Origin: Pseudomonas hefeiensis
GTDB lineage: Bacteria > Pseudomonadota > Gammaproteobacteria > Pseudomonadales > Pseudomonadaceae
Direction of reading: 5' to 3'
Assembly (NCBI RefSeq): GCF_030687835.1
Contig: NZ_CP117449.1
Span: forward strand, 4,216,001-4,280,000
Length of the DNA: 64,000 nucleotides
This document shows, piece by piece, positions 8,111 to 30,500 of the stretch (its first letter is position 1; every line of letters starts with the position of its first letter). Both the position numbers and the translations under genes were made by a program. The notes beneath the pieces are model-generated. The model was not told the DNA's origin and made no database searches. It worked only from the letters and a program-made list of their open reading frames with translations.

Positions 8111-8464
8111 CACCGAAAGGCCAAATGTTTATCCCGCCAGCATCAGTGTAGGACCTGACCGCCTCGCCTTGCGCCGTTGCCTACAACTACGCCAGAATCC
8201 GCCGGCTTGTGCGCCTTGGGACGGGGCTTTATCGTTTTCCGGTCGCTGACGAATCAGCGATCGGGTTTGGTAGCCCGGTTTTCCTGGTGCACGTGCAACC
8301 TGACGCAGGGGATTTCTATGCCCTCTGTTTTATGGTGGTCATGCGCAGGGCGTCCTCGGACGCGCCGGGTTGCCAGGTAACCGGTCTACCAACCTTCGTA
8401 TGGCCACCTCCCTTCGTTTGGTAGCGAAAGGGATGGCTCCAATTTCTTACCTGGAGTTTCATCA
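8111..8464 (+). promoter_or_regulatory. Long structured 5' leader of the DUF6124 gene (candidate cis-regulatory RNA)
   Basis: 354 bases without a convincing gene. The sequence shows an 11-bp stem (8239-8249 with 8254-8264, one G-U) capped by CGAA. TTGGTAG occurs in two hairpin loops (8267-8273 and 8418-8424). CTACCAA at 8386-8392 is complementary to both. Further hairpins lie at 8351-8364 and 8365-8384. A final stem (8435-8441 with 8452-8458) contains the Shine-Dalgarno TGGAG. The two CCTTCGTnTGG copies (8393 and 8411) are direct repeats. The function is inferred; no known riboswitch was recognised. Confidence 0.6.
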
Positions 8465-8806
8465 ATGTTCAAACCAACACCCAATCCGCCAGACACCGAT
8501 CCAACCGCCCTCAACGCCAAAGAATTCGACAAAGCCGCCGACCGCGCCCTCGACTTCTACCTCAAGCCCAAACCAACCAAGCCCGAGCCTGATCCAAACC
8601 AAGTCTTCACCGTCGTCAACGGCATCGACACCGAAGCCCTGCTCGCCAACCTCAGCGAAACCCTGGCCTCGGCCAATGCCATGGTCAGCGACCTGGCCTT
8701 CGATCTGGAAGGTTCCCGGCGCCACGTGGCCCTGGGCATTCAGCAACTGATCGAACTGAGCGGCTTGCTGGCGAACCGGGTGCTGGATAACGTCGACCCG
8801 CGCTAG
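8465..8806 (+). CDS. DUF6124 family protein
   Basis: 113 aa, start supported by CCTGGAG eight bases upstream. The N-terminal third is Pro/Lys/Asp-rich and likely disordered (FKPTPNPPDTDP, KPKPTKPEPDPNQVF). The rest is helical (IDTEALLANLSETLASANAMVSDLAFDLEGSRRHVALGIQQLIELSGLLANRVLD). This layout is that of the small DUF6124/DUF3077-like proteins common in fluorescent pseudomonads. The function is unknown. It sits alone behind an unusually long leader. Confidence 0.75.
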   Translation: MFKPTPNPPDTDPTALNAKEFDKAADRALDFYLKPKPTKPEPDPNQVFTVVNGIDTEALLANLSETLASANAMVSDLAFDLEGSRRHVALGIQQLIELSGLLANRVLDNVDPR

Positions 8807-21449: not shown

Positions 21450-21545
21450 TGGCGGAAGGCAGCCGGAGTCGAACCTGCCCGGGAACGGATGCCGTCCCCA
21501 ACCGGGTTTGAAGCCCGGCCGCGCCACCGGGCGCGATTGCCTTCC
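21450..21545 (-). tRNA. selC: tRNA-Sec (anticodon UCA)
   Basis: 96 bases including encoded CCA (21450-21452). The 8-bp acceptor stem (GGAAGGCA / TGCCTTCC), anticodon loop CTTCAAA with UCA complementary to 21509-21511, the long variable arm (TTGGGGACGGC..GTTCCCGGGCA) and GGTTCGACTCC T-loop match bacterial SelC. It sits next to selB and selA and serves the UGA in fdoG. Confidence 0.97.
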
Positions 21546-27503: not shown

Positions 27504-30500
27504 TTAGACTTTCTCCACGTTGACCAGGAATGACTTGGATTCCGGGGTCTGTGTGTTGCCATCGCCGAGGAACGGCACCAGGGTGTTGGTCAGGTAACCG
27601 TGACGGGTGGCGCCGGTGAAACCCCAGTGCAACGGGATACCGATCTGGTGCACCACTTGATTGTTGACCTGCAGCGGACGAATCCGCTTGGTCACCACCG
27701 CCACCGCTTCGATGTGCCCGCGCTTGGAACTGACCCGCACGCGGTCACCGGCAGCAATGCCCTTCTCCTTGGCCAGGACTTCACCGATTTCGACAAACTG
27801 TTCGGGCTGGGTAATAGCGTTGATCGGGCAATGCTTGGACCAGAAATGGAAGTGTTCAGTCAGCCGGTAGCTGGTCGCCGCATAAGGGAAGTCCTTGGCC
27901 TGCCCGAGGGTGTCCCAGACTGAATCGAAGATCCGCCCGGCCGGGTTGCTGGTCGCCTGCCTGTTGTTGGGGTGCATCGGGTTGATGCCAATGGGCGTCT
28001 CGAACGGTTCATAGTGTTCCGGGAATGGCCCTTCGTTCATCTTGTCGAGGGCGAAGAAACGCGCCACGCCTTCGGGGTTCATGATGAACGGGTTGATGCC
28101 CGCTTCCGGTGCGGCGTCGGCCTTGTAGTCGGGCACGTCGGTGCCGGTCCAGACCTTGCCGTTCCACCACACCAGCCGTTTGTTCGGGCCCCATGGTTTG
28201 CCTTGAGGGTCGCAAGAGGCGCGGTTATAGAGAATCCGCCGGTTCATCGGCCACGACCAGGCCCACCCCAGGTTCTGCTTCATGCTGAAAGGATCACTGT
28301 TGTCACGCCGGGCCATCAGGTTGCCCTGCTCGGTCCAGCTGCCGCAGAAAATCCAGCACCCGGACGCCGTGCTGCCATCGTCCTTGAGTTGGCCGAAGCC
28401 GGACAGTTGCTGACCCGTCTTGATCACCGCGCCTGAAGCGTCGGTGACATCGGATACGGCGTAGCCGTTGAATTCCCGGGCCAGCTCTTCCGGCGACGGG
28501 TCATCCGGTAATTTGTAGGGCCAGTGGAGCTTGAGGATCGGCTCGGCCAAGGCACCACCATCGGCCTGGTAACGCTTGCGCAGGCGCAAGAACAGCTCGG
28601 CCATGATCTTCACGTCCGTGCGCGCCTGCCCCGGGCCATCGGCACCCTTCCAGTGCCATTGCAACCAGCGACCGCTGTTGACCAGCGAACCGCTTTCTTC
28701 GGCGAAACAGGTGGTGGGCAAACGGATGACTTCGGTCTGGATCTCGGCCGTTTGCACATCGTTGTAAGGTCCGGCGTTGCGCCAGAACTCCGAGGTTTCG
28801 GTGGCCAGTGGGTCCATCACCACCAGCCACTTGAGTTTGGCCAGCGCCTTCATTACCCGGTTCTTGTCCGGCAAGGCAGCGATCGGGTTGAAGCCCTGGC
28901 ACATGTAGCCATTGACCTCGCCCTTGCCCATCATGTCGAACATTTTCAGGATGTCGTAGCCGGGAATGTCCAGTTTGGGCAGCCAGTCATAGCCCCAGTT
29001 ATTCTCGGCAGTGGCATTGGCGCCGTACCAGGCTTTCATCAGGCTGACGTGAAACTTGCCGTAGTTCTGCCAATAAGACATCTGCCCGGGACGCAGCGGC
29101 TTGAGTGCGCGCTTGGCGATGTAGGCGTTGTAATCCTGTTCGGCCTCGGCCGGCAGGGTCAGGTAACCGGGCAGCAGGTTGGACAGCAAGCCCAAGTCGG
29201 TCAGGCCCTGGATGTTGGAGTGCCCGCGCAGGGCATTGACGCCCCCGCCCGGCATGCCGACGTTGCCCAGCAGCAGTTGCACCATGGCCGCGCTGCGGAT
29301 CATCTGCGAGCCTGTCGAATGCTGGGTCCAGCCCAGCGCGTAGAGAATCGTCATGGTTTTGCCCGGTTGCGAGCAGGTGGCGATCTCTTCCCAGATTTTC
29401 TGCATTGCATCCACGGGCATGCCGCAGACCTGACTGGCCAGCTCCAGGGTGTAGCGGCTGTAATGCTGCTTCATTAATTGATAGACGCAGCGTGGGTCTT
29501 GCAAGGTCGGGTCGACTTTGGCGAAACCGTCCTCGCCGGTTTCGTAGCCCCAGCCGGACTTGTCGGTATAGATGCGCTTGCTCGCGTCGTAACCGCTGAA
29601 CAACCCATCCTCGAAGCCGTAGTTAGCCTTGACGATGAACGACACGTCCGTATAGGTGCGTACGTATTCGTGCTGGATCTTGTCTTCGGTCAGCAGGTAA
29701 TTGATCAGCCCGCCCATGAAGGCAATGTCGGTGCCGGTGCGGATCGGTGCGTAATAGTCGGCCACCGAGGCCGTACGGGTGAAACGCGGGTCGACCACAA
29801 TCAGCCGCGCCTTGTTGTGGGCTTTGGCTTCGGTGACCCATTTGAAACCGCAAGGGTGCGCTTCGGCGGCGTTGCCACCCATCACCAGAACCAGATTCGC
29901 GTTGGCGATATCGGTCCAGTGGTTGGTCATGGCACCACGGCCATACGTCGGGGCAAGACTTGCCACCGTCGGGCCATGTCAGACACGTGCCTGGTTATCA
30001 AACCCCAGCATGCCGAGACTGCGAATCACCTTGTGGGTGATGTACCCCGCTTCGTTGGACGATGCCGACGCCGCCAGGAAACCGGTGGTCAGCCAGCGAT
30101 TCACCGTTTGCCCCTGGGCGTTCTTCTCGATGAAATTGGCATCGCGGTCGGCCTTCATCAGGTCGGCGATGCGATCCAGCGCTTCATCCCAGGAGATTCG
30201 CGTCCATTGCGTGGTGCCGGGCTTGCGCACCTGCGGGTACTGGAGACGCGTGGGGCTATGAATGAAATCGAGCAGGCCTGCGCCTTTGGGGCAGAGGGTG
30301 CCGCGATTGACGGGATGGTCGGCATCGCCTTCGATGTGGATGATGCTCTGGGCGACATTCTTCGCATTGTCGCCCAGGCTGTACATGATCAAGCCGCAAC
30401 CGACCGAGCAGTACGGGCAGGTGTTGCGGGTTTCATGGGTATGGGCGAGTTTGAAATGACGCACTTGTTCGGCGAAAGCTGGCGTCGGGGCCATGCCCAG

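Follow-up and report, generated by a model that had tools for sequence, protein, structure and literature searches.

C4 is the classic antisense immunity RNA of phages and is functionally known from P1 and P7. As described in articles that were available in part, C4 of these phages is cut from its transcript by RNase P, its b′ region blocks the ribosome site and its a′ region determines specificity, with a 4-nt change separating the C4 RNAs of P1 and P7 (PMC5320573). C4 of P1 restrains icd and ant (PMC8198154; PMC12197685), the former of which inhibits cell division (PMC8198154), while P1 and P7 C4 confer heteroimmunity (PMC12197685), and C4-like RNAs of A. baumannii have also been seen to be cut at a GG (PMC5320573).

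The window analysed here is a stretch of 64,000 nucleotides of the Pseudomonas hefeiensis genome, in which a DUF6124 gene (8465-8806, plus strand; 113 aa; PF19619, 107.1 bits) is preceded by a structured leader. Covariance-model searches matched this leader to C4 antisense RNA (RF01695) at 8328-8414 (+), over model positions 1-87 of 87 and with 75.6 bits as against a gathering score of 45, and upstream of C4 to c4-a1b1 (RF03163) at 8229-8281 (+), with 56.4 bits as against 46.7. An earlier note on this DNA had called the leader a C4-antisense-like control RNA, had stated that no named RNA class has this layout, and had proposed a comparison with Rfam. Because two Rfam families exceed their gathering scores, the likeness is borne out more strongly than was claimed and the statement that the class is unnamed was wrong, both C4 antisense RNA and c4-a1b1 being named in the available part of PMC2864571. 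The Rfam matches rule out a new RNA class; as regards a ligand riboswitch, no match to a riboswitch family was obtained in 8150-8500, where C4 and c4-a1b1 alone reach the gathering score in Rfam. The leader contains a phage-type C4 antisense RNA, with the elements arranged in the order a1 b1, C4, a2 b2, gene, as in P1, albeit that the gene here is DUF6124 and not the icd and ant found downstream of C4 in the P1 immI operon.

The long-range complementarities of 7, 6 and 5 bp described in the earlier note are all present within 8267-8392: TTGGTAG (a1, 8267-8273, +) is a perfect 7-nt complement of CTACCAA (a′ of C4, 8386-8392, +), CCGGTT (8275-8280) is complementary to AACCGG (8379-8384), and CCTGG (b1, the upstream partner of b′, 8283-8287, +) is complementary to CCAGG (8373-8377). 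The second TTGGTAG that the note had assigned to the same CTACCAA was found to be its exact complement at 8418-8424 (+) and represents a2, while the 11-bp stem capped by CGAA was located at 8239-8249/8254-8264 with one G-T pair and combines with the a1 hairpin (8262-8277) in the c4-a1b1 element. Both TTGGTAG copies lie in hairpin loops TTTGGTAG, held by the stems CGGG/CCCG (8262-8277) and TTCG/CGAA (8413-8428), respectively. The proposed core of two loops and one shared anti-loop thus stands as a1, a2 and their common partner a′; what had been overlooked is b2 (TTACCTGG, 8447-8454, +), which is a perfect 8-nt complement of the b′ loop of C4 (CCAGGTAA, 8373-8380, +) and overlaps the Shine-Dalgarno sequence GGAG (8453-8456). 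The target sites that characterise RF01695 are accordingly represented by exact matches of 7 nt for a′/a2 and 8 nt for b′/b2, the latter at the ribosome-binding site. The minimum free energy (MFE) of 8242-8470 was -97 kcal/mol, whereas shuffled sequences averaged -76.5 kcal/mol (z -4.62) and none of 200 equalled it; the MFE structure includes the long-range pairing between C4 and the upstream part. The same window also carries a SECIS_3 element (29926-29984, minus strand) and a selenocysteine tRNA (21454-21545, minus strand).

In the P. hefeiensis genome (6.45 Mb, one contig), at least 31 C4 RNAs exceeded the Rfam cut-off among the best 150 of 1945 first-look candidates, and our own covariance model R1 recovered the same 31 along with eight weak opposite-strand matches at the same places. 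Across the 31 copies 14 of the 22 predicted pairs of the C4 fold covary, and a GG is found in all 31 at the place corresponding to 8334-8335 of the window. A DUF6124 match was present downstream, within the search distance, in 26 of the 31 loci, the start codons chosen by us in the DUF6124-linked loci being situated 44-55 nt past C4; among the other loci one precedes a DUF3077 gene (L015, 126.7 bits), two precede proteins of 94 and 93 aa without a Pfam match that are DUF3077-like by eye (L018 and L026), and two are followed by frames of 56 aa (L024) and 28 aa (L010). Conversely, about 30 DUF6124 genes were counted in the genome (31 rows, one gene occupying two), of which 4 of 30 are without C4. 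Upstream, a c4-a1b1 match (E 0.001) was present in 24 of the 31 C4 loci and an a1 match in all 31. Five of the 29 c4-a1b1 matches in the genome are without C4, and solo a1b1 hairpins at 1892817 (-), 3811107 (+) and 4285594 (-) (L050, L060 and L066) are immediately followed by genes for proteins of about 90 aa, DUF3077-like by eye. The loop of these three, TTTGGCGA, would have TCGCCAA as its perfect partner; since none of the C4 RNAs listed for the genome contains it, control of the solo hairpins as trans targets is unsupported here.

Covariation among homologous leaders, the absence of which the earlier note had named as grounds for abandoning its proposal, was strong both in the 31 paralogues and in a set of 104 unique elements composed of the own loci and of named Pseudomonas DUF6124 loci. 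The latter were 79 loci from the best 80 of 470, and C4 lies directly upstream of the gene in 77 of them, the exceptions being L132 and L136; L122 was dropped, having no start codon in range. In the 31 paralogues the longest Watson-Crick run averaged 7.03 with the cognate as compared to 4.29 with foreign partners for a′ with a2 (z 12.9), and likewise 7.58 vs 4.04 for b′ with b2 (z 17.7), 7.45 vs 5.00 for a′ with a1 (z 12.7) and 6.39 vs 4.79 for b′ with b1 (z 9.4). All four own-locus pairings lay above every one of 20,000 permutations, as they did in the 104 elements (z 20.8, 31.3, 20.5 and 15.7 in the same order). Duplex-energy means in the own loci also exceeded all permutations, but by this measure the own partner was the best in only 4 of 31 rows for a′ with a2 and in 16 of 31 for b′ with b2. 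Runs of at least 6 nt were found in 104 of the 104 elements for a2, in 104 for a1 and in 86 for b2, and b2 overlaps a Shine-Dalgarno-like tetramer in 64. A hairpin loop contains the core of a1 in 97 of the 104 elements and that of a2 in 101. Positions 1-6 of a′ are each filled by two to four types of Watson-Crick pair and no more than one mismatch, counts that are flattered by anchoring on the best run. The permutation ignores relatedness, yet the numerous matched cores, comprising 20 distinct strings for a′ and 65 for b′, require repeated joint change. The pairings are far above chance.

The C4 set of this genome is nearly orthogonal, because 29 of the 31 C4 RNAs have their strictly best match in their own leader when the two runs, a and b, are added together; none of the 930 foreign pairs within the genome had both runs at 7 nt or more. 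The only own proteins that are at least 90% identical, L012/L016 (94.4%) and L011/L030 (91.6%), are encoded by near genome neighbours and share no 7-nt a site (CTACCAA vs CTTGCAGA and CTGCTAA vs CTGCGAA, respectively), but other pairs at 80-89% identity, such as L020/L031 and L034/L036, have the a′ core in common, which argues against a general rule. Among pairs below 80% protein identity, runs of 7 nt or more at both a and b occurred in none of the 914 pairs within the genome but in 21 of the 4606 that span two genomes (p 0.037). At 50-80% identity the corresponding figures were none of 292 vs 21 of 2602 (p 0.26), and this within/between comparison is confounded by orthologues. Below 50% identity shared a sites were commoner within (25 of 622) than between genomes (6 of 2004), contrary to the idea of selection. 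That selection keeps the copies apart inside a genome is therefore suggestive only.

Within the genus, C4 was detected in 54 of 59 Pseudomonas genomes, the present one included, with at least 1017 matches, a median of at least 17 and a maximum of at least 54 among the best 61 candidates scored per genome. DUF6124 was found in 47 of the 59 (710 matches) and DUF3077 in 45; DUF6124 and C4 counts were correlated (Spearman 0.88), no genome had DUF6124 without C4, and seven had one to three C4 RNAs without DUF6124. Elsewhere in the class C4 occurred in 11 of 228 genomes, with one to four copies each, in a scan of the best 18 or fewer candidates per genome that returns 18 and not 31 for the P. hefeiensis genome and in which any higher count would read 18. 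A gene adjoining the locus, PstS/OmpA, is strongly matched (E 1e-130 or better) in 56 of the 59 genomes, but C4 lies beside it in only 3 of the 30 best loci (G000, G035 and G039), which suggests lineage-specific acquisition of the window locus. The cassette is also present in viral sequences: of 85 DUF6124 loci in IMG/VR, whose contigs may include host flanks, 80 were kept, and by our count 72 have a sense-strand C4, two of the eight without it starting at a contig end. Among seven IMG/VR loci viewed for gene context, four of them tested, one cassette lies between tail-fibre and tail-sheath genes (L276), one near head and neck genes (L284) and one beside a CI-like repressor (L286). In 58 unique IMG/VR elements, obtained from 60 matches after apparent duplicates and weak second hits were left out, runs of at least 6 nt numbered 57 for a1, 56 for a2 and 47 for b2. 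INPHARED phages yielded one DUF6124 record (EU982300), in which the gene adjoins prtR and has C4 upstream, and no match to the DUF3077 query; plasmids yielded no match to DUF6124 or DUF3077.

Upstream of the c4-a1b1 stem a putative sigma-70-type promoter is represented by TTGTGC (8207-8212) and TATCGT (8230-8235), separated by 17 nt (8207-8235, +). A generic promoter scan found none; a TTG-led hexamer and a TA...T motif about 17 nt apart are conserved in position in 29 aligned a1b1 matches, and transcription would on this sequence evidence start near 8242. An operator-like block of 49 bp, or about 50 bp (8167-8215, +), is common to other C4-DUF6124 loci and present in 15 of the 29 own-genome a1b1 matches. 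When up to three mismatches are allowed, the 22-nt core of the block is found at 16 sites across the genome, 15 of them at C4 loci, as compared to none for the backward pattern, and a transcription regulator common to C4 loci is possible. The sixteenth copy (L269, 745991-746012, minus strand) is an orphan without a C4 match and is perhaps the remnant of a lost cassette.

These data support, with a probability of about 0.86, the reading that the locus is a C4 antisense RNA module silencing the DUF6124 gene behind it. A single transcript from near 8242 would carry a1/b1, C4, a2/b2 and the coding region in that order, and RNase P may free C4 by cutting at the GG at 8334-8335, a site placed by analogy with the published C4-like RNAs (PMC5320573, available in part). 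In the freed C4, a′ would pair with a2 and b′ with b2 on the Shine-Dalgarno sequence, of the same or of a sister transcript, and translation of DUF6124 would stop once a2/b2 are covered. In the uncut transcript a′/b′ would instead pair with a1/b1, excluding the C4 fold, and a1/b1 would therefore act as an internal decoy. In MFE predictions, which hold no information on kinetics, a′ pairs with a1 and stem P1 of C4 is given up in 24 of the 31 own leaders, while the C4 fold wins in seven; with a foreign upstream part, a′ paired with that part in only 7 of 186 chimeras. Since the predicted upstream pairing thus depends on the leader's own upstream part, the models support a1/b1 as an internal competitor of a2/b2. 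The 3′ strand of stem P1 of C4 can also pair with the leader at +12 to +36, for example in L015, weakly above permutation (z 2.5-5.3), and a third alternative stem formed with the lower leader is possible.

Chance complementarity in a repeat-rich leader would have in its favour only that the single blocks are short, and with the permutation and shuffle controls and two Rfam matches against it, and covariation refuting it, it has a vanishingly small probability. The dependence of a′-a1 pairing on the own upstream part, and the additional pairing of the P1 3′ strand of C4, would also fit a purely intramolecular switch, in which a1 and a2 compete for a′ in the uncut mRNA, a signal or factor decides between them and C4 is never set free. 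This is improbable, however, as the C4 fold is itself conserved through covarying pairs, RNase P releases C4 RNA in the published cases (PMC5320573, available in part) and the leader matches no riboswitch family. The alternative that resident C4 RNAs act mainly in trans, on phages or mobile cassettes that enter the cell and carry the same sites, with the gene behind C4 a secondary target, draws on the heteroimmunity conferred by P1 and P7 C4 (PMC12197685, available in part) and on 11 of 1798 pairs of an own C4 with a viral leader that match a2 and b2 at 7 nt or more, as against 0 of 930 foreign pairs within the genome. Such viral matches may nevertheless reflect orthologous copies of one cassette, nearly every C4 has its strictly best match in its own leader, and the five solo a1b1 elements have no clear own-genome C4 partner, so that trans action as the main role is unlikely.

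A harmful DUF6124 protein with C4 as its RNA antitoxin, resembling a type I toxin-antitoxin pair, is equally doubtful. The AlphaFold model of DUF6124, a helical hairpin of only moderate quality (pLDDT 75), had no PDB or viral fold match at E 0.001, its sequence had no PDB relative (two matches, best E 0.26) and no PHROG match, and no toxin family was matched, although C4 of P1 restrains a cell-division inhibitor, icd (PMC8198154, available in part), and a toxin gene of the SymE family (PF08845, 48.8 bits; L250) follows C4 in another gammaproteobacterium, G135. The latter case implies that C4 gates more than antirepressors. Elsewhere the genes behind C4, tested in part, include four of antirepressor type, namely P22_AR_N in Pseudomonas G054 and, in other genera, Rha together with BRO-N (G282) and BRO-N (G125), which is to be expected by analogy with P1 and speaks for the silencing module, and in some Pseudomonas (L179, L180 and L183) C4 is followed by a frame of about 55 codons overlapping or adjoining a second gene, like icd/ant of P1. 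For DUF6124 the prophage setting and the neighbouring repressor suggest a phage-control or accessory (moron) role, and DUF6124 and DUF3077 look like one superfamily, since a protein behind C4 in G009 matches both (43.1 and 25.1 bits, respectively).

Beyond silencing of the gene behind C4, we tentatively consider a wider scheme, which we hold to be possible and rather less than probable, in which the C4-gated single-gene cassettes of Pseudomonas (at least 54 C4 RNAs in one genome) move between prophage and chromosome, a′ and b′ diverge, and the residents jointly silence matching incoming cassettes or phages, which would amount to an RNA-specified incompatibility built on DUF6124/DUF3077. In such a scheme each cassette must escape silencing by the others, and a′ and b′ would diverge for this reason, as in P1/P7 heteroimmunity.

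The kind of RNA is known and a 21-copy group has been published for A. baumannii (PMC5320573, available in part). A search of the open-access literature, insofar as article texts were available, gave no paper that links C4 to DUF6124 or DUF3077 in Pseudomonas; in the same texts DUF6124 was not named, and DUF3077 was named only in PMC9630843, where a mutation in a P. putida gene is reported. As no such report was found, the matched, nearly orthogonal and gene-linked C4 family is, as far as these searches reach, new. It presents C4 as a genus-wide family of matched sets of RNA, target and gene, and offers, through their regulation, a way into DUF6124 and DUF3077, two protein families that are uncharacterised. 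As a single genome provides about 30 naturally occurring variants of the same RNA regulator that differ in specificity, it becomes possible to test what governs antisense specificity and cross-talk.

SymR is transcribed from the strand opposite to SymE. The SymE/SymR type I toxin-antitoxin system resembles the present locus in that an antisense RNA covers the start of a small gene, whereas C4 is encoded on the same strand, inside the leader. The group 1 C4-like small RNAs of A. baumannii are similarly numerous (21 copies), variable in the a′ region and cut at GG, but the available part of PMC5320573 ties the individual copies neither to a family of downstream genes nor to a matched a2/b2, while most of the copies found here lie in front of a DUF6124 gene and are complementary to their own leader. 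C4 of P1 and P7 belongs to the same families (RF01695 and RF03163) and has the same order of elements, b2 at the ribosome-binding site and a′ as the determinant of specificity. The Pseudomonas C4 RNAs differ from it in being chromosomal, in numbering 31 nearly orthogonal copies in P. hefeiensis and in preceding DUF6124 instead of icd/ant, and it is in scale and target that they go beyond P1.
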